Origin: Emydura subglobosa
Lineage: Eukaryota > Chordata > Testudines > Chelidae
Direction: 5' to 3'
Length of the DNA stretch: 64,000 nt
NCBI GenBank assembly: GCA_007922225.1
Contig: ML679961.1
Coordinates: forward strand, 9,831,776-9,895,775
Positions 41,501 to 63,182 of this stretch are shown piece by piece. Position numbers and translations under genes: made by a program. The stretch's first letter is position 1; every line of letters starts with the position of its first letter. The notes under the pieces are model-generated. The model saw only the letters and a list, made by a program, of their open reading frames with translations, searched no databases and was not told the DNA's origin.

Positions 41501-44500
41501 GCCTGGCTGGAGGTCCGGTTACCAAAGATTCATCAGTGTTTGCTAGGAGAAAAAGCCGCCTGCTCGCTTTGTACTGTTCCATTTCTACATCGTGTCTGTC
41601 AAAACCTTTCTTAGTATAGCAATTGATGCACTGTGCAGTGCTTTTATTCCTAGAGCAGCCTGACACTAATAGCTCCTATTTTAGTGTGTCTGTTAGTGGG
41701 TGATGGCTAGAGTGGAGTCTACCAACGGTTCCTTGCCTCTTGGGCCAGTGTGGGCAGGGACTTGGAAATAGTATAAACACACCCTAATGTTCTTTGGCCA
41801 GGAAACATTGAGTATTGGCCTGTGCCAGTTTCAAACATCTCTAAACAAGTCCAGCAAATGCTATTTCTGAGCCAGTTTGAAAAAGGACTTCTTAGTCTTT
41901 GATTTTACATTCAGCAATTTTTTTTCTTTGCAGACCTCTGCTTCAGTCCTGGCAGAAGAGCTACAGAAAGTGTAAGCATTCCTTCTTCCAGCTGTTTATG
42001 AAGAAGTTGCTAGCTTTGTTGCCTGCTCAATATGTAGAAACTCTTAACTCGTGCTCAGCACAGACGAGAGATTTGTGAAGGAAACGCCGTCACTCAAGTG
42101 TTTTACTTTCCATTGTGTGTAATCCTCTTGGAAGCTGTGAAACTTCTTCCTACGGATATCCCCTCCCCATCCCAGACTTGGAATGCATTGTGTATGGCTG
42201 TGTTTGCTGTGCAGGAGTGAGAGCTGCCCGTTTGTTGACGTCTGAGTGTATGGATCGGTGAAGTTAGTACAGCCTCTAAAGCAGACCTCCAGCGAACTTG
42301 TCCTGTTGGGGGGAGAAAGGAGTTGTTATGATGCACCAGGCTTGGTGCACGTTTTGTAAACTCTTGGAAAGCATGAGAGGATTTAAAACAAAAATGAAAA
42401 CCTCTTTGTCCAGAACACTCTGCCAACAGGAATAATTTTACAGGCCTGATTTTGTGCTGCATATTCCTCCTTTATGTGTAGCCTAATGCTATACTTGCAT
42501 TTCTGTCTAAAAGGCCTTGCTGCAAATTACTTGTATCTCTTTTTTTGTACAGAATTGCAGAAAAGGACAAACAGATGAAGCAGGTGGAGGACTCGTTAGT
42601 CAATGAACATGCTAATCTAACCAGCAAGGAAGAGGAGCTCAAGGTATAGGAAAGGCCTATATTGAAGGAAACTGAATGTAACGAGCTTGCTCTGTAGTCA
42701 GAAGCTATGATTTATGAATTGAAACCCACAAAGCTAATGCCTTGCTTTCTCCCATTCGTGTTCCTGTGAGCACCAATGGTCTGTTTGCACAGATCTTTTG
42801 GTGGGACTGGGGCCCAAGTTCACTGCAGGTGTAACCTTTGGGTGAGCTAGAGTTTACTTCACTGCCCTTCTCCACTGCTTTTAAAAAAAAAAACAAACCT
42901 CCCATAGAAATGCAAATGGCGACCCAGAATTCAGTTACTGAGGATTTTAAGCAAGGATTGCACTGGGTCAACCTCCCCACAATCAAGTCCGAAAAGAACA
43001 AAAGGTATAAACTTAATTCTGAAGTACCAACTTTATAAAAATCTTATGCTAAGGAAACAATAACTACAGTATAATGTGGCTACTTTGTAATCCACATAGA
43101 ATCATAGAATATTAGGGTTAGAAGGGACCTCAGGAGGTCATCTAGTCCAACTCGCTGCTCAAAGCAGGACCAACCCCAACTAAATCATCCCAGCCAGGGC
43201 TTTGTCAAACTGGGCCTTAACAACCTCTACAGATGGAGATTCCATCACCTCCCTAGATAACCCATTCCAGTGCTTCACCACCCTCGCTAAAAAAGTTTTC
43301 CCTAATATCTAACCTAGACCTCCCTCACTGCAACTTGAGACCGTTGCTCCTTGTTCTGTCATCTGCCACCACTGAGAACAGCCTAGCTCCACCTTCCCTG
43401 GAAACCCCCCTTCAGATAGTTGAAGGCTGCTATCAAATCCCCTCTCCCCCACTTGTCTCTTCTGCAGACTAAATAATTCCAGTTCCCTCAGCCTCTCCTC
43501 ATAGGCCAGGACCTCCCCTGCTTGCCACAAGTTTTCAAAGATAATGGCCAATGGCTCTGCAATCACATCAGCCAACTCCCTCAGCACCCTCAGATGCATT
43601 GTGTATGGGCCTATGGACTTGTGCATGTCCAGCCTTTCTAAATAGTCCCGAACCTGTTCTTTCAGCACTGAGGGCTGCTCACCTCTTCCCCATTCTGTGC
43701 TGCCCAGCCCAGTGCAGTAGTCTGGGAGCTGACCTTGTCTGTGAAAACAGAGGCAAAAAAACCATTGAGTACTTCAGCTTCTTCCACATCATCTGGCACT
43801 AGGTTGCCTCCCCCATTCAGTAATGGGCCCACACTTTCCCTGACCTTCTTGTTGCTAACATACCTGATCATACATTATCTTCACAGTTATACAGAAACAT
43901 AAAGAAAACAAGTTAAATCTAAACAGGGCTGTCCCCACAGAAACGCCTTAGTTCGCCTGGGTCTGTTAGTCTGTGATCACTAAAATCTAGTGTCTGCTGA
44001 GTTCAAAAGCACTGTTCTTTCTTCCACTTGGTTGTAGAAACCTCCAGCTGGAATCCATGCAGACTCCTCCTCCTCCTCCTCTGCTGAAATCACTGTTAAC
44101 CAGTCAGCTGACTAATTAACCAACCACTCAATTTAAGTGTATACATTAGGGGGAAAAAGCCCTGCTGCAAAATGCTTCAGAGTTAGGGAAAACAGTCTGC
44201 TTTCTGCTCCTGTGCTCAGCTTCTCCCAGGGCACATGGTCTTTTGCAACGCACCTGCCCTGACTACTTGCCCTCATGGAGTCTGATGTCTGAGTCCAGCA
44301 GCAACAGGGAACCTATTGAGCATGCCCCAAACTGCCACATCCACTTCCAGAAACTTCAGGTTGTGGAGTGCCTGCCGGTTGTGCATCGGCCTGCCAACAG
44401 TGACGCAAACCCAACTCATATGTACCCCCTCCTCATAGATCTCTTAAAGAGAGAGCTCCTTATTAGGCATGCGGGTTACACAGGCAGATGAACTTCAAGG

Positions 44501-47500
44501 GAGTCGGAGGTTATCTTGGTGTTAACGTCAGGCTCTTAGCAAAAGATTGAGTGAAATATTTACACTGAAGAATATGGAATGACTTGAAATAGTGTCTTTA
44601 AAAAGCATATGAATTCATCTCTTTTCTCCGTAGGTTGTACAAGCTATGAATTTATCCCTAAAAGCGGAAATGCAAAAGTTACAGGCTCTGACAAATGAAC
44701 AGGTAAAATAACCATGTTTAACTCATGAAGTGCTAGATTCTGCCTCACATACATCTGAGTGGTACCTTACTTTGTGAGTAGCCCTATTGATTTCACTGAA
44801 ATTACTCTTGGATTAGGGTAGAAGCATGAAGGCTACAGATCTGGGCTAATTTGTGATGAATTTTGAGAACCCTAACATCTTAGGAATCTTTTTAAAACAG
44901 CCCTGCTTATTTAACATCCCAATCACTGGAGCAAACAGCTTTAATTTGCTGTTCATACGGATTCGTTTAAATTTTCAAACGTGTTCCTCGAGGAGGCTAT
45001 GCCCACAATTGTCGATACAGATACCATGATTCCACGTGCAGTCAGGACAAGCATCTAAAATAATCACATGCACACTCTTTCCCAGGTGCAATTCTAAAAA
45101 ACTGGCCCTTTGCGTTTCAGCCCTGTGGGCAGGTATTTAAAATACTTGAAAGCGCTTTACTTCATCATAGCGAGTGCCGGATATCTGAGAGCACCAATGC
45201 AGAGTGCCCGTTGTTAAATGCATAACGTGGAAGATATGAGCTTGCAGCCATTAAAAATGAGTAAAGATAACATTACTCCTTCACTTAGGTTGGAGACTGA
45301 TATAACGAAAGAATCAGGGAAATGGCTTATTGGGGAATGTGGGGTTGATTGAATCTTGTGATGTAATATGTTACGACTGTGCTAATCCTCTTTATATCTA
45401 GGCTGCTGCTGCACATGAGATGGAGAGGATGCAGAAAAGGTAGATTAAATAAAATAAATCCAACCAGCTTTTGGTAAACAGTTTTTGTAGGTCTTTGTTT
45501 ATACCTTATTTGAACTGAATGGATGCTTTTTGTAAGACAATGGAAGAGGGGGGAGCGTTTTTAACTGTGTAATTTACTGTCACAGTACTCATATTAAAGA
45601 TGACAAAATAAGAGCACTTGAGGAGCAGCTACAAGGACAACTTGCCCAGGTTTTGAACACAAGGGAAGAATTTAAGGTACCATACTCTATGTATTATGCT
45701 TATTTGTAACATTTTCTAGGTGTCTGAAAGGTTCTGTAACAGTGTTAACAACTGCACTGATTTGCAGAGTGGGGCTATGTATTTTCAGCTGTTCAGCCTG
45801 TAAATAGGAATATGTGATATTGCTGGCATCCTTTCAGGATGTTACTGTAGCAGCAGCAAGCTATGCAACTGAGTACGTTTGTGCTTAAAATCCAGACTGT
45901 CTCTAAATAGTTAATGAAATCTCTGAAATGGCAAGATGCTCATTAATAATTACGACCGTTTTTCTGCATTTCATATTTGAAATGTGTCCTTCCTGCTGTT
46001 GGTTCATACATGGCTTGGATTATCATGTTGCTATTGATCGGATTATGACATTTCTTAAAATCTAAATAAATGTAAAAATATCTGATTTTTAACTTAAAAC
46101 TTGTCATCTGTAATATGGCAGCTAAGCGATTGATTAAAGTTACAGCTCTGCCAATGTTTGAACTCCTTTGTGTAGAGTTGTTTGTTTCTGTATCATGTAC
46201 AGACAAGAGCAAACAGTGCAAAAAAACAAAACAAAACCCACCACAAAATCCCCACCCAAACAGCCTCACTTCAAGATGTAGACCCTTATAAGCAAGGCCT
46301 GCTTCCCATGAAGGGATTTGATGCCTTCTTCCTAAAGATAGTTTGTTCAGCACAGATGGGATCGTGCTTTTGCTTCTCTTCCCAAACAAGATGAGTTTTG
46401 CTGTGAGCTGAGACATGACCACCTAGTGTATCCCATAAAGGATGTAACAGTGCTGGGCATTGTAGTTCTTTGCATCAGAGAGGAAAGACAAAAATGGGTT
46501 GAGTAATCTAGTCCAAAATGGATTTTACAAAATTGACATGGTGCTAATAAGTAGTTTGCTGCAGGCGGAGAGGATAGATTTCACTACGTTGTGTAGTGGG
46601 TACAGAGTGATTCGAATATCTCAGGATGAGGACATTTGCTTTTGGCTATCTGGGGACAAGAATCTTAATGTTCTGAGGAAGCAAGAAAGAGGAAAAAGCA
46701 ACTTTTTTTACAGTCTTGGTTCTATGCTACTGTATTGATTTTTTTTTTAAAAAAAAAAAAAAGTACTTCCCTACTTATGATTCATTACGTGGTTAATCTT
46801 ACAAAACAAAGTAATTTGAGTGTGCTGTTCTGAATTGATGGCTTGCTATCTCATCAAATTTCCTTCCAGATTCTGAAGGAACAAAACAAAGCTTTGCAAT
46901 CGGAAGTTCAAAACCTGCATGCTCTCTTGTCCGAGCAGGTATAGTCAATATTTATGTGTGTCTTATTAAATAGCCAGTGTTGTTTCTCTTTTAAAGAGTA
47001 CTACTTCTGAACCAGGGTCCCTTGGTGAGCTAGTTGAAAACTCGGCTGTCCTGGCCATTGCTTTTGGAGCTCTGGTTTCACTGCTGCAAGATGGAAGGTC
47101 CTTTGTGGGCCTAACCTGATGTTTGAGCAGCAGCTTTCTGTCAAAACGCTGGATATCAAGAATCCAATAGTGATCATCAGGAGGCCAGTATTGAGTCAAA
47201 AGCCTGGGAACAGATTGCCCAAGCTGCTGACGAGTCAATCTCATTGGTTAAATATAACTTGGTGAGCCATGCTACGCCCTCCCCCACTATGATGTGTCAA
47301 GACAGAGGACATCACTTTCCTTTTGTCTGTTTGCCACCGATTATCCCAGCAGCCAACAGGGCCACTTGGAGATCAGAGACATCTAGGTTCAAAATCCCTG
47401 CGGATTGTTCTTCATTTGGATTTTGGTGCTTCCTGATGTGTTTTCTCCTCTCCTTGTATAAAAGCTTTTCCTTCCTCAGGGGTCCTGATGGCTTCTCAGA

Positions 47501-50500
47501 CACAGTTCATTACAATTATAGTTCAGTCAGATGAGGCTTGTTGCAGCAGGTAGTGTGGGAGGCCGTGGTGTTACAGGGGAAGCGGCGCTGGTTAATGAGA
47601 CAGAATCCTGCTAGTGGAAAGTGCCTGCTTCATCACTATGGATGAGACTCATTCCCCTGCTTGAGCTAATCAGTGAGACTAGAGACTGAAGCCCCACTGA
47701 GGAATGCCCTAAAATGGGCGGAGCGCTGGGGACTTTAAAGGGACAGCCCCTGGAGGCAATAAATTGGTCATTCCCCTAGGCAAGCCCTTGCTGTGCTAAT
47801 GGGGAGAGGGAATTGCTCTGTCTCCTTTGGTTATGGGTCACTTTACATGGATGTGATGCAAGGCTGTGTGTGGAGGTGGCTTCTTGTAGCTAATCACAGG
47901 AGATTAGGGTTGGAAGAGACATCAAGAGGTCATCTAGTCCAACCCCCTGCTCAAAGCAGCACCAACCCCAATCCCAACTAAATCATCCCAGCCAGGATGG
48001 AGATTCCACCACTTCCCTAGGTAATCCATTCCAGTGCTTCACCATCCTCCTAGTGAAAAAGTTTTTCCTAATGTCCAACCTAGACCTCCCCCCCCCACAA
48101 CTTGAGACCATTGCTCCTTGTTCTGTCATCTGCCACCACTGAGAACAGCCTAGCTCCATCCTCCCTGGAACCCCCTTTCAGGTAGTTAAAGGCTGCTATC
48201 AAATCCCCCCTCATTCTTTTCTTCTGCAGACTAAACAAGCCTAGTTCCCTCAGCCTCTCCTCATAAGTCCCATTCTCTAGCCCCCCCCTAATCGTTTTCG
48301 TTGCCAACTGCTGGACTCTCTCCAATTTGTCACCATCCTTTCTGTAGTGGGGGGTCCAAAACTGGAAACAATACTCCAAATAGAGGGGAATAATCACTTT
48401 GCTCAATCTGCTGCCAATGCTCCTATTAAAGCAGCCCAATATACGAATGGTCTGACTTTTCTCATTTTGCCCCAGATGGCAGGTTGTTACTTAAGAGCCA
48501 CAGCCCTTTGACCCAGTGTTTTAATGTATTCACTCAAAAAGTGGGGTGGTAGGTGCAGGAAACCTGCCTATCGACATTTAGCTCTAGGAGTACATTGTAG
48601 GGGCTGCTGCGTTAGGTCCTTTAACTCTTCTCCTGTTTTTGATGCTCTTGCTTTCACTGCAGGTGTAAATAGCGCAGGTAATTCTGTGCGTTCAGACAGG
48701 TTATCTGCTACCACTGTTCCCTTACTCAGAATAACTCTGTCCCTTTACTCCAGACTGACACTTTTACCACATTGTGTCACTCAGCTTCCAGTTTCCAAAC
48801 TGAATTGGCCTTTAAAAGCAGCGTTACCCTTCTTCTGTGACTGCCTGTTGTTCTGTGGCAGCAGCCTTTCCCCTGCAGTAGGAACTTGTGACAGGGCAAG
48901 CGGCAATAGCACCGTATTTCATAGCCAACCAAAACTCTGGGCTTCCCAGCAAGCAGCATGAAGCTAAAATTGAGCTTAAACTGATGAACCTTTTAGTAAT
49001 ATGCTATTTCCTTGTCTAAAGACCCACTGACTCTCATAATGAACAGTACCGACTTTGTCTTATTCCTAATCTCTGATCCTGGAGTACTCCCCCACATTTC
49101 TTTTTCCTCACCTACCAGATAAGCTGGTGGTAGCTGCCTGTAAAAAGATTCAGCAAAGGACGTGGCTTTACCCTTTCACCACAGGTCTTGCTGCCTCAGT
49201 TTTGAAATCTGTTTGGCTGTAGTTCCAGCTGTCAGTCAGCACCTCCTACCCCTAGAACAGCTCCATTGTTCTCAGGGTTGACAGTTAGAGATTCCCAACT
49301 GGCACCTTAGAGCCTGAAGAATCACTACAGGGTTTTCGCCAGCTGTTGGCTGGAGCACCTCCTCTCTCGTGGGTGTCATTAAAAAAAAAAAAAAAAAGCT
49401 GCCGCCACCATGCCCTGCTGTTGGCCCTTGCATAGATGTCAGAGTCATAGCCTGGTGCGTGGTGCCCCAGCTAAGTGCGTTGCTTTGGAAAACATAAAAA
49501 CTCTGATCTTCATTATGTTAGTGGATGTTCAGGCCTGAGCTGGAAGCTCTGAACCAGATGCTGCAGGGTGCTTGTCCCCTTCAATTTCCACTGACATCGT
49601 TGGACTTAGGGGGCAGTTGGCACCTCATAGGATCAAGCCTGATGTCCAGAACGCCTATTTGTCAACTAACATAGAGTATAAAAGTTGGCCTGGACCAGCA
49701 CCCCATTCAAATCCTTCTTCCCACTAGCGATACTAGAGGTGCACATGTGAAAACTCTACTTTTTGGACTAGTTTAATCCAAAAACTCAGTGTCAAGACAA
49801 ACTGATGCTAACCAGTCCCTTCTGTTACTAAAATCTTAAACCAGCGTTGATCCAATCAGTGACCAATTTTTTATACTTTAATTTGTAGGCCAATAAAGAG
49901 CTGTTGGAGCAAATGGAGAGGAGGTAAGGGGTTTTCGGTTCTCCTCAAGAAAGCTAAAATACTGCCTGATCCTACGGCAGTAAGGTTACCATTTTCCACC
50001 TGAAAATCTCTTGTCGGGCCAACTGTTCCTTCATGGAGAATATGTTGTAACATCTTTGTTTAATTTCTCAGTATTACCGAAAAGGATGATAAAATAAAGA
50101 CTGTTGAAGAACTGCTGGAAGCTGGGCTAATACAAGTGGCTAATAGGGAAGAGGAACTGAAGGTAAAAACCTCTTGCACTATTATCATCGGTAGGAAATA
50201 GAAATGAGGGTTTCTTGTATGATGTGTAACTTTTAGCTTTGGGTATCCATGTCAAGGTTTCAGAACATTAAGGTGACCTCTTTAAGGCCAAAATGTTCAC
50301 TTTCTGCTGATGGTGTTTTCATGCACAAGTCTAGAACAGGATATTCTTACTGTAGAGGAGTTTGGTAATGTCCTAGTTGTTCAGGAATAAAAACAAGTGC
50401 GGTCCCAGATGTATATGTCCAAAGTAATTACTGACAAGCTTCCATCTAGAAAAAGTTGTTGTTTAAACTCTTGGGATTATTCCTGCAGCCTCTATGATTT

Positions 50501-56500: not shown

Positions 56501-59500
56501 GTCAGCAGTTGAAAGCAAGTCTCTGCAGAGTGAGTTTTCACTCCATCTACCGGAAGCAAAGAGGCAAAAAAGTCAGATTTCATAGTTTCTAGTGTCCCAA
56601 ACAATGGGACTCCTGTTCCCTTTAGGAGATCATTTTACAGGCAGCCTGATCCATCTTGCTCTCAGGCAGTCGCTTGATACTTTGCCTGTACTTTAATTTA
56701 CGTGATTTCACCCCATTGTTCTTAGTTATACCTCGAAGCACTACCCCTACTCTCCTCCCTCCTTGCTGCTCACACCCTTCAAATATGTAGAGGGTGTTTG
56801 TCATTTTAGGCAAAGTTGTACACAGTTTTTCTGTCCAATCTTTTCCCCTAAAGCAATCCCTCCTGGTCTTGATGATCGCTCAGATAGCGTGCCCGGAATT
56901 GCACACCGTGTGCAGCTGCAGTCTCCTGAGAGCCACATAGAACACCTGCTCCTTGAAGTGCTACTCCAGGTGGCGATAGCTGTGCTCCAGCAGCCCTCCG
57001 CTTCCATTAGCAGTGCATTGTGGGAGACTTTGTGGAGTGTTAGCAGAGCACTAGTGGAACCCTTTCGGCTAGTCTGTCCACACTAGCACCAAAACGACTG
57101 ACCTCTCCCCACTGCTCAGCTCTGATGCTCTAAACAGTCACTAGTTCCCTGGTAAACTGTTTGACGCATGTGCAGGTATGGACATGAAGTGTTCTTATTG
57201 TGGAACAAACATTGCTTAGCATGATGCATTTCTCTGCTGTAGACAAGGCTTGGGAAGTAATTCAGATTCTAAGGCAGCACTGGAGCAGGGTACCATCTAC
57301 TGGAGTTGATGGGCTTTGTGCCGTTGTGATTCCTCCCAGGTCTCTTGCTAAGAGCATGGACCATAGACTAGTAGCCTGCTGTTTTAAATAGAATTCAAAA
57401 GAAAAAATTCCAGGTAAACTTCGTGTTCTCTTCATCCACCCACAAAAATTAAATACTCTCTATGGCATCCTCCTTTGAAGAGAGACTTGGAGGCATTGTC
57501 AGTCTGGAAATCCTATTTAAAAATCTCTTACTTGTGTTAAGATCTAAATTATTAAGAGATCATCTGTTTTGAGCTTCACTCAGGGTGGGTAGTGACACAA
57601 AATAGACGTCTTTTGGCTCAGTGTTTGTTTACCTCTGGTTCTCATACGCTGGCCCAGTGCTGGAGTGCTTCTCTTTGACACTGCCGGGGATATGCTGAAT
57701 CATCATTTAAAGGGTGTAAACGATAACGTTCAGTTTTGTAATTCTTCCCCACAGACCTGCCTTCTGGGCTTAAACGATCAGTGTCCCTTTGAACAATCCC
57801 TAATGGCCTTGTCTTCCCAAACTGTTTTTAATATTGTCTGTTTACTTCCCTGTACATACTGGATTTTGATGTGGATAGTCCAATCTTATGGGAGTGATTT
57901 AAATACCGAATGTTGTCTCTAGGTATCGATCGCTTCACAAGTCAAGGATCTTCAGACTCTGTAAGTACTGCTGCCAACAGAAGTATCTAATCTGTTCCAT
58001 GGTACCCTTCTTCAGTTTCATTCTCAAATTTCTGTTATGAAGATTTTAGCTTTTCTGGGATCCTTTCGGTGGTCTGTGTGAAACGAGGTGGTAATTTTAG
58101 TGGGTGAGCATCCTTGTTACAAATGCCATGGATTATTTGCTGAAATAGCTGAGCAGGTTGTCAGGTGTTCAGTGGGCATAGAGACCCATTTATTTTTCAG
58201 GTGATACATCCAGGTCAGAGTTGAGAAACGTTGGCAGAGCAATGTGGGAAGCTTACACTGCTCTTCTGTTTGTACGTATGTGGAGAAATAAGACTTAAAT
58301 CTCCATGGCTGTTAGTTCAGCCCCTTTCCTGGAGGGAGGGAAAATACCTTTAGATAAGAGAAGATGTGTATGGAATCCCTGCAATGTATATTAGTGCAGA
58401 ATTTCAGTCCACTTTGATTTAATGTGCTGTAGCTTTGATCAAGTGCACCTTCGAGCTCCCAGCTAAAGTGGAGTGAAATGGAAGTGTTCATACTCCTCTT
58501 CAGTATGGCATAAACTGCAGTGGGAGCCTTTGATCACGCAGCCTGCTCTTGTTTGTGATGCACTCATTGAAAAGCTGAAGTGTTTTTTTTTCAGATGGAT
58601 AAAACACTTTTTTGTGCATAATGGTACAGGTTGAAGGGGAAGGAAGAACAGATGAAAACTATGGAGGCCTTGTTGGAGGAGAAGGAGAAGGATGTTGCTA
58701 AGAAAGGAGAATGGTTGCAGGTACATATTTTTAGTATCCAGTGAAGTGTCTGATGCAATAATTATGAATACAGAATTTACATGGACACTTAAATCTTCTT
58801 CTTTTTGTATCCAAAGGGTCAACAAGATACAATTGCCTGCTTGACTGGTAAAGTTCAGGAGCTAGAACAAGAGAACTTGGCACAGCTACAGCAGGTATGG
58901 ATTCCAGAGCAGAATGGTCTGGCAGTGCCTTTGGCTTTTGGTACAGGCCCATACCATCCCCGTGTGTCCCTTGTGACCTGGTATGGCATTGTGGGTGCCC
59001 CGTGCCCTAATAGGGGCAGTAACAGGTTCACTTTCACAGCCCAGGGCAAGGAGGAGCCAAAACAGCATGTCTCCTTTTACTAAGGTTTCAGGACTGAAGC
59101 AAGCTAACTTAGTCTACAAAACAGAGTCTCTTATTAGGTTAGTTTCCTAGGGCCTGAGAAGAACAGCCATCTCTCTGCAGCCTGCCTGGCTTCTAATTCT
59201 AACAGAATCTTAGAGTTGGAAGGGACCTCAGGAGGTCATCTAGTCCAACCCCCTGCTCAGAGCAGGACTAACCTCAGCTAAATAATCCCAGCGAGGGTTT
59301 TGTCAAGCCACAGCTTAAAAACCTGTAAAGATGGAGATTCCACCACCACCCTAGGTAATCCATTCCAGTGCTTCACCATCCTCCTAGTGAAAAAGTTTTT
59401 CCTAATGTCCAACCTAGACCTCCCCCCCTGCAACTTGAGACTGTTGCTCCTTGTCATCTGCCACCACCGAGAACAGCCTAACTCCATCCTCCCTGGAACT

Positions 59501-62500
59501 CCCTTTCAGGTAGTTAAAGGCTGCTATCAAATCCCCCCTCATTCTTCTCTTCTGCAGACTAAACAAGCTTAGTTCCCTCAGCCTCTCCTCATAAGTCTTG
59601 TGCTCCAGCCCCCTCGTCATTTTTGTTGCCCTCCACTGGACTCTCTCCAACTTCTCCACATGCCCCTTTCTCTTGTTCAACTTCCTGTTCCTGTTTAAAT
59701 AGCCCAGCCCTAGGGTGAAGCAAGGTCTCCTTGATTACACTCCAATGGGGCCCTTAAAGGGGTAATATACTCCTTCACACTTCTGAACTGGACAATTGCT
59801 TTTTGCTTCTACCCATGGCCCGTTTGAAAGGACTGGCCCTGGTTTAATTTAGGGTGTGATTTTAAACCTATTTAGGGCTTGTGTACACTGGAAAGTTAAA
59901 GTGCAATATCTATTCTGGAGTAACTCCATATGTAGAGAAGCAGTGCAAAAGGCTGTGTAGACATGCTTATTTTGGTTTGGAATGGCTTCTCGTGGTTTAG
60001 CTTGAATTAATTAAGACAAGGCTAAAGTTGCAAAAGTAGCAAATATGGAAGGGGTTTCTTACCCTCAGGCAGAAAACCAACGATGGTGGTAGCCGTGGTC
60101 TGGACCCTTTGAAGATTGTGGACTTTATCACAATTATCTACTTCTTGGCACCTCAGGGCTGAGCTACATAACGTGCACTTCTTACAGCTATGTTTGCAGA
60201 CCGCCTGCCTTTAGGTGTCTCAGACTGATTTCAGTGTGACATCTATGCTCTGTCTTGCATCTCCCTCCTGTGTGCACCTAAAGCTCTGGCCTGGAATCTC
60301 TGAGTGCTTCTCCCTTTTGATTTATGCCAGAAGTTGTTGGCTGAGATTTTTGCTCTTCTTTCTATGGGATGCCAAAGGGCAGGCAGGCAGCACAATCTCA
60401 GGATTTTGTGCTGAAATTTGCAGACTCTGCAGTGCTGAAATTGGGCTCATTTTTCTGAGGGCAAGAGGTGATGCCTTACACACTTTCTGTGTCTGTCTTA
60501 AGTTGGTCCTGTAGCCGGGGAGGGATTTATCCCATTGGTGGGTGGAGGTGGTAGCGGCTGCTTGCGTTAGATCTGTGCCATTTGGCATCTGTTCTGTGTT
60601 TGATTTGTTTAAATTTGGTGTTATGCAGTTTTGGAGCAATACAACTTTTTAAACTCAATTGGTCTTCCCTAGAAAAGTGACACTTCATCTTCTAGTTCCC
60701 TTTGTGGAAGCGCTTTAAGGTCGTCTGATGATAAGCGCTGTAGAAGATCTAGGTATAACTATTCTGCCCCATGTAACTGTTCACTCTTAAACTGAAGGTG
60801 TTCACTGTGCTATCAGGCTGGGTCTGAATGTCTCCGTTATTTGTTAGGTATCTGCTGTGTCGCACGTCCAGGATCTGGAGAGCTTGTAAGTATGCCTAGC
60901 AGTAGCTTCTCAAGTGTCCTTTCCTATGCCTGCTGGTTTCTGTGCTGTGATTTATCTTAAATTGAAATGCGTGTGAGTTCACTGCGGGAGTTTTTATCTG
61001 CTTTGCTGTGATAAGCTTTAGTGCTGATGGAAGCTCACCAGTCAAGGTAACTGCCGGCCTGACTAAATATGAGTGCGCATAGACAGAGCAAAAGGAAGTG
61101 ATCATGGAAGCTCCTTTAATTTCACTGGGAGCTTAACACATGGCTAGTAGCTCTTATGTGTTCAGCACTCTAGATGTTCTGATCTCTCCCCATCTGCCTC
61201 GACATTAAGTATAGGTTTGACAAAGTAGCCAGGTCTATACAGCATCAAAGGGTACGTCTACATAGCCCATGGAGCCAGCCTTCAAACCTGGTTTACGGGC
61301 TTGGATTTGTGCTACCAGGCTAAAAATAGCTGTGTAAACAGCTCTTAAGTTGGACCTCGAGGTCTGAGACCCACCCCACTCCGCAGGCTTCTGAGTCTGA
61401 GGTGCAGCATCTACATAGCTATATGAGCCCAAATGACCCAGGCTGAGGCCTGCTACTGCGGGCTTTGTAGAAGTACCCACTCGGGCAGCAAGTAGATAAA
61501 CAGCAAGAGATACTGATGGCTAATTTACCTCCATACGACTCCTGAAGCACCCAGCAGTCCACCACTTGATTGGCAAAGAAACACTGACACATTTTCCATT
61601 GTCATTTTGGTTTCATGCTAACTATTTGTCTGACAACTCTGTCTGACATGAAGATAGAGGATGGGTGCATGTATTCGGTATTTCAAAAGAGGATTGCTTT
61701 AAAAGTCCTTAGGTTCAGATAGCTTAGTTTGCTGTCCAGAGAGACAAGTGATAGATTCTCATGCCAGAAGGGACCCCTGTGAACATCTGGTCTGCCTGAC
61801 TGCATAACGCAGGCCATAGTGACCGTGATGAAGAATCCACCACAATGCTTGGTATTGTCCCACGTCCGTTGAGCCCAATCAGAGAGATGGAATCACCTTC
61901 CCCAATTTTGAAACATTGTCCCTCGCCCTGTGTCTCAGGTGAGATTCTGGTTACTTGAGGGCCAAACCTGGGTTTTCCAGTTGAAATGACAGAAGCCGGG
62001 TTTAATTCTTCTAGGGAGCCAGCTGGTGGATGGGTTACGGGGATTTGTAACCTTTGTCCTGTTTCTGTCTGAATGTTATGTAGGTTGATAGTGACTCAAT
62101 GAATTTGCTGTTTGGTGACCTGTGAAATAACTCGGTACCTTCAGGCCAGTTTTTAGTGGGCCGGTGCTTGCAGTATAGCAGCTGGTGCTATTTGTTTCTT
62201 TCTTGGCACAGAGGTCATGGATTGTATGTGTGCGGAGCCCACTTTGTGCTGTGGCGGTCCCTCCAGATTGACCTTGCTCGGCAGCCGTTTGTCATGTATA
62301 TGCTGTAAATGCACAGGCTTAATTTCTTGATTGCTGTGAAGCCAGCACCCCCTAGAGCATCAGACTCTTATCCCGAGTGATATTTATTTTTTAATCAAAG
62401 CACTTTCTGGTTTCCTGAACTTCACAGATTGAAGGAGAAGGAAGAACAGATGAAGATGATGGAGGCTGTGTTAGAAGAAAGGGGGAGAGAAATGACAAAC

Positions 62501-63182
62501 CAAGGAAAACAGTTACAGGTGAGTTGTTAATGGGAAATAAGCATTCTAGGCAATAGTGTCTTGGGTGATAAACAGGAGTGCCTGAGTGTGAAGATAATGT
62601 CGTATCCTCTCTCTATATAGGTGGCACAAGATGAAAATGAATTATTTAAAGTGGAAATCCAAGAATTAAAGCAAGAGAACTGTAAACAGGTACAGCTCCC
62701 GCTTTGACTTTGATAACTGACGTTGATGAACTCGTTGCTGAGAGTATCCAGAGCAGGTTTATCCCCATTCTTTATCAGCTATATCGATCCTGGAACAATT
62801 TAAAGACCTGTTCGATGTTTCCCTAACTTAAGACTGTTTTCCAGTTGCTGAGTACCTGGTCCCTCTGTCGCTACCCTCCCCCTTATTTCGTTGGCCTGCA
62901 TCCCTGCTGCAGTCTGGTTTATCCCACCACATTGCTCCCTTGTTTCACATTTCCTACCCGTCAGGCCACATGCCATGGTCACCAACCTTCTGGCCAAAGA
63001 AAACTGGGCAGGATTCCCTTGGAAGCTGTTAATGCTGCTGCTTAATCTGGCAGGGAGTGCTGGTGAGCAAAGCAAGGCGGCACCTCACAGCACTCCCAGC
63101 TACTGTTTTTAATCTGGTTTAAGGCATTTCTGATCTATTTGTAGGCATCTCGGGCTGTCCGAACTGAAGAGCTACTGCAAAT
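16983..63182 (+). CDS. KTN1: Kinectin 1 gene (KTN1), 30 coding exons, 3' end outside window
   Basis: Kinectin is an integral ER-membrane protein that binds kinesin and has a long cytosolic coiled-coil rod. Joining the 30 exons listed below gives one open frame of 3017 nt (1005 residues plus 2 nt) with matching phases at every junction and GT/AG borders throughout. The protein starts with a short lumenal tip, a hydrophobic anchor at about residues 8-29, and a Lys-rich stretch at about 48-66. Next come a low-complexity charged region to about 275 and an almost unbroken coiled coil from about 280 on. The segments [16 protein letters not shown] and [15 protein letters not shown] are hallmark kinectin sequences known to me from vertebrate orthologues. 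Human kinectin has about 1357 residues, so roughly 350 are missing downstream. From exon 12 the gene is built of repeated 38/91/69-nt exon triplets. The related ribosome receptor RRBP1 is excluded because its decapeptide repeats are absent. Confidence 0.96.
17506..19251. other. KTN1 intron between coding exons 1 and 2
   Basis: Contains one short repeat (17886-17950). A T/C tract at 17680-17705 follows the exon. Otherwise unrecognised. Confidence 0.6.
17886..17950 (+). repeat. Interspersed repeat fragment, same family as 51826-51909
   Basis: ACAAGGTGGGTGAGGTAATA, then TCTTTTATTAGACCAAC matches a common reptile repeat. The copy at 51826-51909 is in the opposite orientation. Class unknown to me. 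Confidence 0.65.
19252..19389 (+). CDS. KTN1: KTN1 coding exon 2
   Basis: 138 nt, residues 175-220, phase 1 at both ends, so skipping it keeps the frame. Acceptor TTTTTACAG ends at 19251 and the donor GTGAGA starts at 19390. It encodes [18 protein letters not shown] and the Lys-rich [16 protein letters not shown], matching the kinectin linker after the first exon. Confidence 0.93.
19905..20575 (+). mobile_element. L2-type LINE 3' end
   Basis: The frame fragments read [18 protein letters not shown] and, further on, a Ser/Pro-rich C-terminus with PPSKPSLK, as in L2 reverse-transcriptase tails. The 3' UTR has TTGTACAGTGCTTAG and GGGGCTCCTCGCTGCTACAG and ends in AATACAAATTATTAATAATA. Multiple stops; dead copy in the intron between exons 2 and 3. 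Confidence 0.75.
20576..21056. other. Intronic, nothing recognised
   Basis: Intron between exons 2 and 3. No repeat or gene identified. Confidence 0.5.
21057..21310 (+). mobile_element. MIR-type SINE with L2-like tail
   Basis: GTGACCACGGGCAAGTCACT and CTCTGCCCGTTTCCCCTCTC are the MIR core. GACTGTGAGCTCTTTGGCAA and ATAATACAAATAATG form the L2-type tail shared with the copy at 19905-20575. Confidence 0.8.
21914..22084 (+). CDS. KTN1: KTN1 coding exon 3
   Basis: 171 nt, residues 221-277, phase 1 at both ends. Acceptor TAGTTGCAG ends at 21913; donor GTAATA starts at 22085. It carries [16 protein letters not shown], one of the most recognisable kinectin segments, then [17 protein letters not shown]. 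Confidence 0.96.
22085..24029. other. KTN1 intron between exons 3 and 4
   Basis: AT-rich; a possible L2/MIR tail at about 22770-22845 (AAGCTTCTTGGGCACAGGGG). Otherwise nothing recognised. Confidence 0.5.
24030..24160 (+). CDS. KTN1: KTN1 coding exon 4: start of coiled coil
   Basis: 131 nt, residues 278-321, phase 1 in and 0 out. Acceptor AATTATAG ends at 24029; donor GTGAGC starts at 24161. It encodes [20 protein letters not shown] followed by a helical acidic segment ending in DALQK. A CR1 insertion begins only about 235 nt downstream of the donor. Confidence 0.95.
24395..26505 (+). mobile_element. CR1 LINE, sense, containing a palindromic insertion
   Basis: Begins in the transcriptase N-terminal part ([18 protein letters not shown], near 24470). 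It continues through [12 protein letters not shown] (near 24860) and [20 protein letters not shown] (near 25035), and the FADD box at 25126-25137 in a shifted frame. C-terminal sequence and a 3' UTR (GGATACTGGGCTAGATGGAT) follow. A 415-bp palindromic element interrupts it at 25586-26000. Its 3' UTR differs from that of the copy at 6060, so a different subfamily. Frameshifted and dead. Confidence 0.9.
25586..26000. mobile_element. Large palindromic element nested in CR1
   Basis: Arms 25625-25746 and 25854-25975 are reverse complements at 119 of 122 positions, around a 107-base centre. CR1 sequence ending AAATGATTA (25577-25585) is repeated as AAATGATTA (26002-26010), where CR1 resumes with GGGGTATGGAGC. 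This gives a 9-base direct duplication. The arm motif GACTAACAAATTTAATTTTT and CAGCTCACTTCCTCAGATGC is a widespread reptile repeat in my memory, usually not in palindromic form. Confidence 0.9.
26506..27017. other. Intronic, nothing recognised
   Basis: Part of the intron between exons 4 and 5. No repeat or gene identified. Confidence 0.5.
27018..27735 (-). mobile_element. Old CR1 LINE fragment, antisense
   Basis: AGACCAATGGTTCCTCTCAG is the degraded CR1 3' UTR. GATGGGGTGACCAGAATAGA with AACACTACAGGGAAGGTGT near 27572 is the typical antisense of the CR1 C-terminal coding part. Strongly diverged, so an old insertion. Confidence 0.75.
27736..28364. other. Intronic, nothing recognised
   Basis: Part of the intron between exons 4 and 5. 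A minus-strand open frame at 28044-28271 shows no known protein. Confidence 0.45.
28373..28682. mobile_element. hAT-like MITE with perfect 8-bp target duplication
   Basis: Terminal repeats CAGGGGTTCTCAAACTT (28373-28389) and CAGTTTGAGAACCACTG (28666-28682) match at 15 of 17 positions. Both sides carry CTCTGTTG (28365-28372 and 28683-28690), an exact 8-bp duplication. Total length 310 bp with no transposase; interior has long C runs. Confidence 0.95.
28691..29107. other. Intronic, nothing recognised
   Basis: End of the intron before exon 5; no repeat identified. Confidence 0.5.
29108..29224 (+). CDS. KTN1: KTN1 coding exon 5
   Basis: 117 nt, residues 322-360, phase 0 at both ends. Acceptor CGTTGTAG ends at 29107; donor GTGAAT starts at 29225. 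It encodes [20 protein letters not shown] and ends in CKQLTQ, continuous with kinectin coiled coil. The intron before it is the longest inside the coding part seen here (about 4.9 kb). Confidence 0.94.
29225..32798. other. KTN1 intron between exons 5 and 6, with a purine-rich block
   Basis: About 29880-31150 is strikingly rich in A and G on the + strand (GGAAGGGAAATGGAG-type sequence), and is unrecognised. A short foldback at about 31580-31640 resembles a common amniote inverted repeat. The rest shows nothing. Confidence 0.5.
32799..32939 (+). CDS. KTN1: KTN1 coding exon 6
   Basis: 141 nt, residues 361-407, phase 0 at both ends. A C/T-rich tract ends in CCCAAG at 32798; donor GTAAAG starts at 32940. 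It encodes [20 protein letters not shown], then [15 protein letters not shown]. The orthologous human segment has nearly the same residues, including KIHVSYQE. Confidence 0.95.
33250..33400 (+). mobile_element. MIR SINE fragment
   Basis: TTCTAGTCCAGGCTTAGCCA, then TGTAACTTAACCACC and TGTACAATGGACATGACATC follow the MIR consensus in sense orientation, diverged. Confidence 0.65.
33625..33885 (-). mobile_element. CR1 3' fragment, antisense
   Basis: CCAATGGTCCATCTAGTCCA with GTATCCTGTCTTCTGACACT and CAGATGTAGGGACACCTAGA are CR1 3' UTR in reverse. Confidence 0.85.
33903..34024. mobile_element. hAT-like MITE, 122 bp
   Basis: Starts CAGTGGTTTCAACCT and ends AGGTTGAAAACCTG, inverted with one gap and few mismatches. 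Flanks GTCTAGAC (33895-33902) and ATCTAGAC (34025-34032) match at 7 of 8. Confidence 0.9.
34033..35533. other. Intronic; possible L2 tail, otherwise unrecognised
   Basis: Intron before exon 7. About 34318-34400 (CCAGAGCAGGGACCGTTGCT) may be an L2/MIR tail. Nothing else identified. Confidence 0.45.
35534..35640 (+). CDS. KTN1: KTN1 coding exon 7
   Basis: 107 nt, residues 408-442 plus two bases. Acceptor CATTTTAG ends at 35533; donor GTATGT starts at 35641. It encodes [20 protein letters not shown] and a segment ending NQMES. The two trailing A bases join G of exon 8 to give Lys. The frame stays open past the donor by chance. Confidence 0.95.
35885..36150. mobile_element. CpG-rich GTCTAC-type MITE, copy 4
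   Basis: Ends CCCTGGTCTGCACTTA-like at the left and AGTATAGACATACCCC at the right. The interior is GC-rich with many CpG (GCCGCGCCGCGCCGATGGG). GGGAGTTACGT (35916-35926) and ACGTAACTCCC (35946-35956) form a perfect 11-bp inverted repeat. The CpG content suggests a fairly recent insertion. Confidence 0.7.
36157..36314. mobile_element. Foldback element
   Basis: GGCCAAGATCTTCAAGTGA at the left is inverted at the right end as TCACTTCTCACAATCTTGGCC. The interior (AGAGCAGGCCCTGTTAAAG, TTAAGTTGGGCGCCTAAATA) resembles a widespread amniote inverted-repeat element. It directly adjoins copy 4. Confidence 0.65.
37290..37422 (+). CDS. KTN1: KTN1 coding exon 8
   Basis: 133 nt, residues 443-487, phase 2 in and 0 out. 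Acceptor TTTCTTTAG ends at 37289; donor GTGACT starts at 37423. It encodes [20 protein letters not shown], then a Gln/Lys-rich coiled-coil stretch. Confidence 0.95.
37423..38410. other. Intronic, nothing recognised
   Basis: Between exons 8 and 9; short TA/GATA run near 37923-37940. No repeat or gene identified. Confidence 0.5.
38411..38644. mobile_element. GTCTACACT-ended MITE, copy 5
   Basis: Starts CTTGGTCTACACTGGAAAC and ends TTAAGTGTAGACATAGG. Inner hairpin arms 38444-38463 and 38471-38490 pair at 17 of 20 positions with a 7-base loop, at the place equivalent to the hairpin of copy 2. It lies about 100 bp before coding exon 9. Confidence 0.8.
38741..38828 (+). CDS. KTN1: KTN1 coding exon 9
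   Basis: 88 nt, residues 488-516 plus one base, phase 0 in. Acceptor CAACTTTAAG ends at 38740; donor GTGTGG starts at 38829, a weaker donor than its neighbours. It encodes [20 protein letters not shown] and then AEHEAAQQ. Confidence 0.93.
39162..39328 (+). CDS. KTN1: KTN1 coding exon 10
   Basis: 167 nt, residues 517-572, phase 1 in and 0 out. Acceptor CTGTTGCAG ends at 39161; donor GTACTG starts at 39329. It encodes [20 protein letters not shown] and ends in VQLQVQ. Its protein resembles the 38+91-nt unit of later exon triplets, here in one longer exon, which may reflect an ancestral unit whose introns were lost or never gained. Confidence 0.94.
39759..39827 (+). CDS. KTN1: KTN1 coding exon 11 (69-nt type)
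   Basis: 69 nt, residues 573-595, phase 0 at both ends. A C/T-rich tract ends in GCACAAG at 39758; donor GTACAG starts at 39828. It encodes [20 protein letters not shown] then AAQ. It has the size, phase and ending of the third exon of each later triplet. Confidence 0.94.
40376..40640 (-). mobile_element. CR1 3' region, antisense
   Basis: TTCATAGAGTCTAAGGCCAG, then ACATCCCATCTTGATTTAAA and GTTCCAATGGTTATTTGCCC match CR1 3' sequence in reverse. It stops at the MITE starting at 40651. Confidence 0.75.
40651..40985. mobile_element. Short inverted-repeat element, second copy of the 517-845 family
   Basis: Ends TAGAGCCCTGCA and TGAAGGGCTCTA are inverted with 11 of 12 matches. Interior motifs GGATATCTGCATCCGTGG and GCGGATCGGATGTCGATCCA recur, reversed, in the copy at 517-845. 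Confidence 0.75.
40986..41933. other. Intronic, nothing recognised
   Basis: Open frames on the minus strand (up to 140 codons near 41015-41437) lack known similarity. No repeat identified. Confidence 0.45.
41934..41971 (+). CDS. KTN1: KTN1 coding exon 12: triplet 1, 38-nt exon
   Basis: 38 nt, phase 0 in and 2 out, residues 596-607. Acceptor TTTCTTTGCAG ends at 41933; strong donor GTAAGC starts at 41972. It encodes [13 protein letters not shown] with the final Val split across the junction. Confidence 0.95.
41972..43094. other. Introns around exon 13, nothing recognised
   Basis: Two intronic stretches without identifiable repeats, flanking exon 13 (42553-42643). Confidence 0.5.
42553..42643 (+). 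CDS. KTN1: KTN1 coding exon 13: triplet 1, 91-nt exon
   Basis: 91 nt, phase 2 in and 0 out, residues 608-638. Acceptor TTTTGTACAG ends at 42552; donor GTATAG starts at 42644. It encodes [20 protein letters not shown] and ends in SKEEELK. Confidence 0.95.
43095..43880 (-). mobile_element. CR1 LINE, antisense, catalytic core deleted
   Basis: Begins with the CR1 tail ATAGAATCATAGAATATTAG and the well-conserved GGGACCTCAGGAGGTCATCT. Reading the minus strand, transcriptase N-terminal sequence ([20 protein letters not shown]) passes directly into C-terminal sequence ([17 protein letters not shown]) at about 43505. Everything between, including the SGVPQG and FADD motifs, is absent. An upstream part ([20 protein letters not shown]) extends to 43870. 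Confidence 0.9.
43881..44633. other. Intronic, unrecognised; short TCC repeat
   Basis: A (TCC)n run lies at 44064-44083. The stretch 43900-44510 is moderately GC-rich and could be an old LTR, but I see no ends. Confidence 0.3.
44634..44702 (+). CDS. KTN1: KTN1 coding exon 14: triplet 1, 69-nt exon
   Basis: 69 nt, phase 0 at both ends, residues 639-661. Acceptor TCTCCGTAG ends at 44633; donor GTAAAA starts at 44703. It encodes [20 protein letters not shown] then NEQ. Confidence 0.94.
45402..45439 (+). CDS. KTN1: KTN1 coding exon 15: triplet 2, 38-nt exon
   Basis: 38 nt, phase 0 in and 2 out, residues 662-673. Acceptor TATATCTAG ends at 45401; donor GTAGAT starts at 45440. It encodes [12 protein letters not shown] and a split Ser. 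The next intron is only 146 nt. Confidence 0.93.
45586..45676 (+). CDS. KTN1: KTN1 coding exon 16: triplet 2, 91-nt exon
   Basis: 91 nt, phase 2 in and 0 out, residues 674-704. Acceptor TACTGTCACAG ends at 45585; donor GTACCA starts at 45677. It encodes [20 protein letters not shown] and ends in TREEFK. Confidence 0.94.
46870..46938 (+). CDS. KTN1: KTN1 coding exon 17: triplet 2, 69-nt exon
   Basis: 69 nt, phase 0 at both ends, residues 705-727. Acceptor TTTCCTTCCAG ends at 46869; donor GTATAG starts at 46939. It encodes [20 protein letters not shown] then SEQ. Confidence 0.95.
46939..47887. other. Intronic, unrecognised
   Basis: First part of the intron between exons 17 and 18. Moderately GC-rich from about 47530; GGGACTTTAAAGGGACAGCC resembles promoter-proximal LTR sequence but I cannot assign it. 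Confidence 0.3.
47888..48520 (-). mobile_element. CR1 LINE 3' end, antisense
   Basis: Starts ATCACAGGAGATTAGGGTTG and reads on the minus strand as [20 protein letters not shown], then [20 protein letters not shown] and [16 protein letters not shown]. Relatively well preserved: open for 119 codons to 48439. Confidence 0.92.
48521..49888. other. Intronic, unrecognised, with a 17-base A run
   Basis: C/T-rich sequence up to 49370, then A17 at 49381-49397. No gene or repeat I can name. Confidence 0.4.
49889..49923 (+). CDS. KTN1: KTN1 coding exon 18: triplet 3, short (35-nt) exon
   Basis: 35 nt, phase 0 in and 2 out, residues 728-738; one codon shorter than the first exon of the other triplets. 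The human protein as I recall it is also one residue short here, so this is probably ancestral. Acceptor AATTTGTAG ends at 49888; donor GTAAGG starts at 49924. It encodes [11 protein letters not shown] and a split Ser. Confidence 0.93.
50072..50162 (+). CDS. KTN1: KTN1 coding exon 19: triplet 3, 91-nt exon
   Basis: 91 nt, phase 2 in and 0 out, residues 739-769. Acceptor AATTTCTCAG ends at 50071; donor GTAAAA starts at 50163. It encodes [20 protein letters not shown] and ends in NREEELK. Confidence 0.95.
50163..51621. other. Intronic, nothing recognised
   Basis: Intron between exons 19 and 20. Short open frames on both strands only. Confidence 0.5.
51622..51690 (+). CDS. KTN1: KTN1 coding exon 20: triplet 3, 69-nt exon
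   Basis: 69 nt, phase 0 at both ends, residues 770-792. Acceptor CTCTTTAAAAG ends at 51621; donor GTGGTA starts at 51691, a weaker donor. It encodes [20 protein letters not shown] then SEQ. Confidence 0.94.
51826..51909 (-). repeat. Interspersed repeat fragment, same family as 17886-17950
   Basis: GAGCTCTGTGTCGCTCGAAA, GCTTGTTTCTTTCACCAACA and ATTACCTCACCCACCTTGTG are the reverse complement of the family. Confidence 0.75.
51910..53489. other. Intronic, C/T-rich block and unrecognised sequence
   Basis: About 52140-52520 is strongly pyrimidine-rich on the + strand with a T run at 52270-52287. GAACCCAGGATTCTGGATCT near 52430 resembles an amniote repeat I cannot name. A short CA run lies near 52712. 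Confidence 0.4.
53490..53600 (+). mobile_element. L2 3' tail fragment
   Basis: TCTGTGTTTGTAGAGTGGCT, AATGGGGTCCTAGTCCATGA and CTATGGTAATTC match the L2 tail seen at 20500-20575. Confidence 0.65.
53969..54006 (+). CDS. KTN1: KTN1 coding exon 21: triplet 4, 38-nt exon
   Basis: 38 nt, phase 0 in and 2 out, residues 793-804. Acceptor TTTTGCTCAG ends at 53968; donor GTAAGT starts at 54007, the consensus donor. It encodes [12 protein letters not shown] and a split Val, very like exon 12. Confidence 0.95.
54620..54740 (+). mobile_element. L2 3' tail fragment
   Basis: GATTGTAAGCTCCTTGGGGC, AGAGACTG and TGCACCTAGCGTAGTGGGGC, then TTAATAATAATGACG, follow the L2 tail in sense orientation just before exon 22. 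Confidence 0.7.
54792..54882 (+). CDS. KTN1: KTN1 coding exon 22: triplet 4, 91-nt exon
   Basis: 91 nt, phase 2 in and 0 out, residues 805-835. Acceptor CCTATGCTAAG ends at 54791; donor GTACCT starts at 54883. It encodes [20 protein letters not shown] and ends in NKEKTVQ, close to exon 19 (both have EKDxKIKxVEELL). Confidence 0.95.
55036..55104 (+). CDS. KTN1: KTN1 coding exon 23: triplet 4, 69-nt exon
   Basis: 69 nt, phase 0 at both ends, residues 836-858. Acceptor GTCATTGAAAAG ends at 55035; donor GTAAAA starts at 55105. It encodes [20 protein letters not shown] then EKQ. The intron before it is 153 nt. Confidence 0.94.
55105..57922. other. KTN1 intron between exons 23 and 24
   Basis: Holds the diverged tandem repeats at 55460-55770. 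The rest is C/T-rich and unrecognised; 56850-57095 ends in GGCTAGTCTGTCCACACTAG and may be a relative of the GTCTAC elements. Confidence 0.45.
55460..55770. repeat. Three diverged tandem units
   Basis: A motif with CTGCCATCTCTTCTTCTGGA recurs at about 55520 (CTGCCGTATCTCCTTCTGAA), 55668 and 55738 (ATGCCATCTTTCCTTCCAGA). The first two are preceded by GAGATGG and GCCCAGG; the third by CTGGTTACTGA. Spacing is uneven (about 150 and 70 bases). Confidence 0.5.
57923..57960 (+). CDS. KTN1: KTN1 coding exon 24: triplet 5, 38-nt exon
   Basis: 38 nt, phase 0 in and 2 out, residues 859-870. Acceptor TTGTCTCTAG ends at 57922; donor GTAAGT starts at 57961. It encodes [12 protein letters not shown] and a split Leu. 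Confidence 0.94.
58630..58720 (+). CDS. KTN1: KTN1 coding exon 25: triplet 5, 91-nt exon
   Basis: 91 nt, phase 2 in and 0 out, residues 871-901. Acceptor ATGGTACAG ends at 58629; donor GTACAT starts at 58721. It encodes [20 protein letters not shown] and ends in KGEWLQ. Hand alignment to exon 28 gives 66 of 91 identical bases. Confidence 0.95.
58817..58894 (+). CDS. KTN1: KTN1 coding exon 26: triplet 5, long (78-nt) third exon
   Basis: 78 nt, phase 0 at both ends, residues 902-927; three codons longer than the other third exons. The acceptor GTATCCAAAG ends at 58816 and the donor GTATGG starts at 58895. It encodes [20 protein letters not shown] then LAQLQQ. A shorter start at 58827 would break the frame. 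The intron before it is only 96 nt. Confidence 0.88.
59203..59700 (-). mobile_element. CR1 LINE 3' end, antisense
   Basis: CAGAATCTTAGAGTTGGAAG, GGGACCTCAGGAGGTCATCT and, on the minus strand, [20 protein letters not shown] identify a CR1 C-terminus and 3' UTR closely related to the copy at 47888-48520. Confidence 0.92.
59701..60847. other. Intronic; small MITE-like piece, otherwise unrecognised
   Basis: About 59873-59968 (AGGGCTTGTGTACACTGGAA to GCTGTGTAGACATGC) looks like a short GTCTAC-family copy. The remainder up to exon 27 is unrecognised. Confidence 0.45.
60848..60885 (+). CDS. KTN1: KTN1 coding exon 27: triplet 6, 38-nt exon
   Basis: 38 nt, phase 0 in and 2 out, residues 928-939. Acceptor TTTGTTAG ends at 60847; donor GTAAGT starts at 60886. 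It encodes [12 protein letters not shown] and a split Leu; 24 of 38 bases match exon 24. Confidence 0.94.
61250..61478. mobile_element. GTCTAC-type MITE, distinct subfamily
   Basis: GGGTACGTCTACATAGC at the left and GCTTTGTAGAAGTACCC at the right are inverted at 14 of 17 positions. Interior (GGCTAAAAATAGCTGTGTAA, CCCAAATGACCCAGGC) differs from the other copies. Confidence 0.8.
61750..61870 (-). mobile_element. CR1 3' fragment, antisense
   Basis: ATTCTCATGCCAGAAGGGAC, ATAACGCAGGCCATAG and GAAGAATCCACCACAATGCT match CR1 3' sequence in reverse, diverged. Confidence 0.7.
62428..62518 (+). CDS. KTN1: KTN1 coding exon 28: triplet 6, 91-nt exon
   Basis: 91 nt, phase 2 in and 0 out, residues 940-970. 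Acceptor AACTTCACAG ends at 62427; donor GTGAGT starts at 62519. It encodes [20 protein letters not shown] and ends in QGKQLQ. Confidence 0.95.
62621..62689 (+). CDS. KTN1: KTN1 coding exon 29: triplet 6, 69-nt exon
   Basis: 69 nt, phase 0 at both ends, residues 971-993. Acceptor CTCTCTATATAG ends at 62620; donor GTACAG starts at 62690. It encodes [20 protein letters not shown] then CKQ. The intron before it is 102 nt. Confidence 0.95.
62690..63144. other. Intron between exons 29 and 30
   Basis: C/T-rich, no repeat recognised. Confidence 0.5.
63145..63182 (+). CDS. KTN1: KTN1 coding exon 30: triplet 7, 38-nt exon (last in window)
   Basis: 38 nt, phase 0 in and 2 out, residues 994-1005. Acceptor CTATTTGTAG ends at 63144; donor GTAAGT starts at 63183. 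It encodes [12 protein letters not shown] and a split codon beginning AT. A 91-nt partner exon is expected beyond 64000. Confidence 0.92.

Follow-up and report, generated by a model that had tools for sequence, protein, structure and literature searches.

The rod of kinectin (KTN1) is encoded in the turtle Emydura subglobosa by exons whose lengths and phases recur in a fixed order. This raises the question of whether the rod grew by repeated duplication of a block within the gene, when it did so, and what the added length may do. The stretch considered here, called the window, comprises 64 kb (64,000 nucleotides) of contig ML679961.1 (C26:9831776-9895775, where C26 is our label for the contig). 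Positions below are those of the window unless stated otherwise. A preliminary description of it had proposed growth by duplication of a three-exon block of 38, 91 and 69 nt.

The Kinectin Locus

KTN1 lies on the plus strand. Its start-codon exon, at 16983, is counted as exon 1, which agrees with the numbering of the preliminary description; exon 30 is the last in the window, and the gene continues past its end. The KP-rich region (PF05104) was found with 77.2 bits (cut-off 25) at C26:9848842-9849192 (window 17067-17417). A hydrophobic N-terminus precedes it in the translation, as in the membrane segment of kinectin. The spliced product (1003 aa) is 99% identical over 100% of its length to kinectin isoforms annotated in the side-necked turtle Emydura macquarii. 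One of these records, P0003, differs from the array described below at 3 residues. At the junction of exons 6 and 7, P0003 is two residues longer than our splice, and thus one border there is six bases off.

All 19 of exons 12-30 (41934-63182) were found, each with a single occurrence, AG/GT flanks and no stop in the spliced frame. Their lengths are those first reported (38/91/69, 38/91/69, 35/91/69, 38/91/69, 38/91/78, 38/91/69, 38), their phases repeat as 0-2, 2-0, 0-0 without exception, and the motifs quoted for them are present (EELQKV in exons 12 and 21; EKDxKIKxVEELL in exons 19 and 22). The preliminary description had counted six cassettes with a seventh begun. The tandem array stands and the count changes: a further exon of the 69-nt type, exon 11 (39759-39827, phase 0-0), which had been overlooked, precedes exon 12. 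The array therefore runs from exon 11 to exon 31 and holds seven complete 69/38/91-nt cassettes of 65-69 residues each, 464 residues in total.

In the order 69-type, 38-type and 91-type, and all on the plus strand, cassette 1 consists of exons 11, 12 (41934-41971) and 13 (42553-42643). Cassette 2 consists of exons 14 (44634-44702), 15 (45402-45439) and 16 (45586-45676). Cassette 3 consists of exons 17 (46870-46938), 18 (49889-49923; shortened from 38 to 35 nt) and 19 (50072-50162), and cassette 4 of exons 20 (51622-51690), 21 (53969-54006) and 22 (54792-54882). Exons 23 (55036-55104), 24 (57923-57960) and 25 (58630-58720) make up cassette 5, and exons 26 (58817-58894; lengthened from 69 to 78 nt), 27 (60848-60885) and 28 (62428-62518) cassette 6. 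Cassette 7 begins with exons 29 (62621-62689) and 30 (63145-63182) and ends with exon 31, which lies past the window. Exon 31 was read from the P0003 protein, where it accounts for 30 residues and one split codon (91 nt); the next 29 residues (87 nt) correspond to the optional exon 32. A run of 4106 Ns starts at the base right after the window (positions 64001-68106 of the concatenate) and covers both exons.

An exon finder missed several array exons and added a few false ones inside the array, and the array borders therefore rest on the direct exon check and on the Emydura macquarii protein. The isoforms of that species contain these exons in identical order, so that the borders match public protein models, which are annotation rather than mapped transcript reads. 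Tandem Repeats Finder, run at the DNA level, reported no array at the cassettes.

Homology Among the Cassettes

The seven cassettes were aligned as protein on 66 columns, which gives 21 pairs. Register 0 was the best of the 66 circular shifts in all 21. The pair scores at register 0 sum to 1600, where the one-residue gap of exon 18 and the three-residue insert of exon 26 were positioned for maximal score; the other 65 shifts average -508 and do not exceed 101. In 2000 shuffles that preserve the hydrophobic/polar pattern, the sum is 427 ± 69, with a maximum of 665. Each exon type taken alone, a comparison that the preliminary description had suggested, also exceeds 2000/2000 such shuffles: 474 against 146 ± 33 for the 69-type (6 exons, exon 26 left out), 216 against 50 ± 22 for the 38-type (6 exons, exon 18 left out) and 768 against 230 ± 49 for the 91-type (7 exons). 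The mean local score is 30.8 within the 69-type, 41.7 within the 91-type and 20.4 between the two. Similarity is thus higher within an exon type than between types (rank test p 4e-8, for pairs that are not independent and with the 38-type left out).

A cassette profile, for which 70 cassettes from ten proteins were used, recovers the seven copies of the KTN1 array with 76.8 to 99.4 bits, matches that arise by construction. On the rest of KTN1 it finds at most 10.3 bits, inside the shuffle range (95% limit 13.1). It is exceedingly improbable that the regular lengths reflect constraint, or repeated intron insertion into a uniform coiled coil: coiled coils are alike in composition, and elsewhere in the rod, too, exons have phase 0 and lengths divisible by three, but the in-register optimum of every pair, the excess over every pattern-keeping shuffle and the failure of the remaining rod exons to match the profile all speak against it.

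The exons before the array measure 117/141/101/133/88/167 nt. Among these, exons 6-8 (141/101/133 nt; phases 0-0, 0-2, 2-0) were considered as an eighth, older cassette and rejected because the profile reaches at most 6.6 bits in the N-terminal part, within the shuffle range.

Residual similarity among introns 11-29 is confined to introns 13, 17 and 26, which match through one interspersed repeat; we did not find any other trace in these introns of copying together with the exons. Missing intron similarity is expected if the duplications are old, and it leaves the event itself without a direct trace. The repeat shared by introns 13, 17 and 26 (at about 43.1, 47.9 and 59.2 kb) is 400-480 bp long with copies 79-84% identical, and presumably resembles the turtle CR1 element.

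The Paralogue RRBP1

RRBP1 (p180) was located in the same genome on the minus strand of contig C18. Its exons, as predicted, follow the same order and phases as in KTN1, and the two genes have in common the KP-rich exon (PF05104), the arrangement and phases of the exons to either side of the array, and a 38/91 pair. Unlike KTN1, RRBP1 is without an array, and we found no 69-type exon in its predicted gene. The predicted exons ahead of the array position measure 123/153/119/154/139/188 nt. The last of them is the positional counterpart of KTN1 exon 10 (39162-39328, plus strand, 167 nt, phase 1-0), the left flank of the array. After a gap of 184 nt follows the single predicted 38-nt exon (phase 0-2, C18:34436204-34436241), the positional counterpart of KTN1 exon 30, then the predicted 91-nt exon (phase 2-0, C18:34434534-34434624), and then a 93-nt exon, the counterpart of KTN1 exon 32. 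The comparison with RRBP1 proposed in the preliminary description thus yields one pair between matching flanks. A weak 48-nt exon (score 0.2) predicted between the two members of the pair was dropped together with other weak predictions.

The RRBP1 pair is most similar to cassette 7 (10/43 identical; score 48, the highest of the seven; shuffle p 0.006). Against cassettes 1-6 the shuffle p ranges from 0.04 to 0.54. The cassette profile gives the pair 13.8 bits, slightly below the 95% shuffle limit of 14.1, and because this score is within the shuffle range the homology rests jointly on position, lengths, phases and best match. The end of the 188-nt exon has a weak resemblance to the 91-type (41.7% over 24 aa; profile 4.7 bits).

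The flanking exons also favour 69/38/91 over 38/91/69 as the phase of the block, a choice that the array alone cannot decide. The repeat of three exons proposed at the outset is retained, and its starting point is moved to the 69-type exon, which fits the flanks better. A 38/91/69 register would also suit what the teleosts described below lack between cassettes 2 and 3.

Fragments at about 7940-8063 and 25534-25584 of the window, and at about 90.4 kb of the extended stretch, match a predicted stretch about 46 kb beyond the RRBP1 38-nt exon. We take these to be probable remains of a LINE reverse transcriptase.

Copy Number in Other Vertebrates

Ten amniote proteins, one per species (five turtles, three crocodilians and two birds), have seven cassettes each. 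Cassette lengths are equal across the ten, except for cassette 3 (one isoform without the 69-type exon) and cassette 4, which is four residues shorter in the three crocodilians. The part encoded by exon 21 is four residues shorter in four crocodilian kinectin records (P0108, P0109, P0110, P0119). A cassette tree for two turtles, an alligator and an eagle, of the kind suggested in the preliminary description, sorts them by position across species with 6 changes, the minimum possible. In it cassette 5 groups with cassette 6 as its sister (97/99), support for cassettes 1 and 3 is weak, and the copies of cassette 4 do not form one group. Since turtles, crocodilians and birds all have seven copies, the copies predate the turtle-archosaur split.

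The more distant sample consists of four long proteins, from the frog Pelodytes ibericus and three teleosts, picked by length and not at random. The three teleost kinectins have five cassette-like units each (t1 to t5), as seen in the protein. The last of these is without a full 69-type part and scores 9.2, 11.0 and 17.3 bits in the three species; as the score is low and that part incomplete, it was assigned by its position and by its best match, cassette 7. Cassettes 1-5 have counterparts in the frog, those of 1 and 3 lacking the 69-type part, and the remainder of the frog kinectin model looks faulty. The teleost models P0137, P0138 and P0139 are fused to an upstream MutS-type protein, which suggests that the kinectin and MutS-type genes adjoin in these three species.

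The cassette trees are built on 66 columns only. In a tree of 49 rows, t2 falls outside a group made up of cassettes 2 and 3 and the corresponding frog units (whole group 96/81, inner group 91/78), and t4 falls outside cassettes 5 and 6 with the fifth frog counterpart (91/96; 92/81). Unit t5 joins cassette 7 (93/90) and t1 joins cassette 1 weakly (68/69), and the placements of t3 and cassette 4 do not resolve. A tree of 37 rows, which leaves out the frog, t3, t5 and RRBP1 (12 of the 49 rows), recovers cassettes 5 and 6 (91/83) and cassettes 2 and 3 (80/67) as pairs, and does not recover cassette 1 with t1.

Fewer units in teleosts could also mean loss. The array may be older than the split of KTN1 and RRBP1, or have been sevenfold in the ancestor of teleosts and tetrapods, with cassettes lost later in RRBP1 and in teleosts. 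This history would agree with the 38/91 part of t2, which is far closer to cassette 3 than to cassette 2 (124-129 against 59-75). It would also agree with topology tests on the 37 rows, in which trees that join t2 to cassette 2 or 3, or t4 to cassette 5 or 6, are not rejected (p-AU 0.157 to 0.382); among these are t2 with cassette 3 (0.382) and t4 with cassette 5 (0.244) or cassette 6 (0.243). With the 49-row tree the alternative is likewise not rejected (p-AU 0.259). Against it, the best trees place both t2 and t4 outside the amniote pairs, RRBP1 would have needed a clean loss of the block that spared the last pair alone, and RRBP1 and the three teleosts alike end in a 38/91 pair without a full 69-type part. 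We regard an ancient array with loss as unlikely, if well within consideration. Duplication of 2/3 and of 5/6 after the teleost split would be the better reading, although unproven.

The in-register homology, the single pair of RRBP1 and the intermediate number of units in the three teleosts, taken together, support the proposal that the KTN1 rod grew by tandem duplication of a three-exon block, as far as can be judged from sequence comparison.

Isoforms and Splicing of the Array

Isoforms were compared in the best 120 of 3869 kinectin records. Many of these are predicted isoforms, with several per species, and thus the counts of skipped exons are annotations and not measured levels. Exon 23 is missing in 26/120 of these best records, exons 17 and 26 in 2/120 each, and exons 15 and 16 jointly in a single model (P0106). 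Apart from these, the best 120 records show no complete loss of an array exon, with partial gaps within single exons in a few, and in none is an exon of the 38-type or 91-type skipped whole by itself. All array copies occur together in 89/120 of the best records, and 31/120 are without some array exon. Outside the array, exon 32 is missing in 63/120 of the same records and one 84-nt exon in 60/120.

A mutually exclusive exon cluster was considered and rejected, as 89 of these best 120 records carry every copy. The mutually exclusive exons treated in one study (PMC9741552) are likewise tandem copies within one gene, but the KTN1 copies co-occur, and skipping mostly involves single 69-type exons.

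The optional exons raise the possibility that the array was retained mainly as a splicing device, in which phase 0-0 exons of 69 nt alter partners or register and rod length is secondary. The annotated skips of exons 23, 17 and 26 would fit such a role, as would an exon of zebrafish heart ktn1 that depends on rbfox1 (PMC4541041), although the passage that reports it does not say which exon this is and does not tie it to the array. We nevertheless doubt that splicing was the main reason for retention: the exons skipped most often lie outside the array, and for four of the seven 69-type exons the best 120 records show no complete skip. Ktn1 exon 41, which is reported to be misspliced in a mouse model of myotonic dystrophy (PMC8136287), is not tied to the array there either.

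After the array, three exons of 84 nt (74149-74232, 74434-74517 and 77280-77363 of the extended stretch) each have phase 0-0 and encode 28 residues, equal to four heptads. Two of the three are optional (missing in 8/120 and 60/120 of the best 120 of 3869 records). They are possibly another small modular series.

Form and Function of the Rod

The core hydrophobic columns of a cassette are 2, 9, 13, 16, 30, 33, 37, 44, 47, 51, 58 and 65. The best heptad phase shifts by three residues near columns 24-33, in the part encoded by the 38-nt exon, where the scores of both phases are close. Across the array the dominant period is 3.46 residues, close to 66/19. A cassette thus reads as nine heptads plus three residues. 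Hendecads (66 = 6 x 11) were considered and rejected: heptads with one three-residue step are preferred because the strongest period is 3.46 and not 3.67. The rise of a coiled coil is 0.1485 nm per residue. On these figures the length would come to about 10 nm for one cassette, about 69 nm for the whole array and about 6 nm for the pair in RRBP1.

KTN1, RRBP1 and CLIMP63 are described in one study as jointly positioning the ER on microtubules, and the fragment of human KTN1 purified there for microtubule binding comprises residues 29-400 (PMC8732269). Another study states that the C-terminal region of KTN1 is required for binding of EEF1D (PMC13231004). Because the array separates the microtubule-binding fragment from the EEF1D-binding region, it may be a spacer between an N-terminal microtubule-binding part and a C-terminal cargo part, a role that we consider plausible and put forward with some reserve.

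Growth of the Rod

The history that we hold to be very probable overall is that of a seven-copy, 66-residue coiled-coil module, gained in tandem in the KTN1 line from one 38/91 pair. It connects what was directly observed, namely the exon structure, the homology of the cassettes, the absence of the array from RRBP1, the copy counts in the proteins examined and the annotated exon skips. The ancestor common to KTN1 and RRBP1 would have carried a single 38/91 pair, flanked by two conserved exons. Tandem duplication of the block along the KTN1 lineage would have given about five copies before teleosts and tetrapods diverged, and seven in the lineage of turtles, crocodilians and birds, in an order that can be proposed from the trees. 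Because the block is a multiple of three with phase 0 at both ends, each duplication added 66 residues and left the frame intact. Each cassette would thereby lengthen the rod by about 10 nm and bring in one local break of register. The array would most likely set the reach between the N-terminal and C-terminal parts, and skipping of 69-nt exons would trim it.

Nebulin, with its super-repeats, and apolipoprotein(a), with its kringles, are known examples of genes grown by tandem duplication of multi-exon blocks. KTN1 resembles them in its recurring exon lengths and phases, its in-register homology and its tandem order. It differs from them in that the module is a 66-residue coiled coil with one register step, is old and strongly diverged, and changes in copy number between the three teleosts and the ten amniotes. 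We did not find a description of the array among the open-access papers searched on kinectin exons, their splicing and their duplication, on its relation to RRBP1, and on intragenic duplication in coiled coils generally.

KTN1 and RRBP1 differ by a block delimited by exons, and its copies vary among the vertebrate groups seen, which provides ready length variants for testing. More speculatively, the length of the kinectin rod may have been tuned in vertebrates in steps of 66 residues (about 10 nm), from one pair (RRBP1-like) to five units in teleosts and seven in tetrapods, each step bringing a three-residue register break and a 69-nt exon removable by splicing. The KTN1 array illustrates one stepwise, frame-safe route by which a coiled-coil organelle tether can be lengthened. 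If this reading is true, the stepwise series would be suited to testing how tether length sets the distances among ER sheets, microtubules and the machinery of translation.
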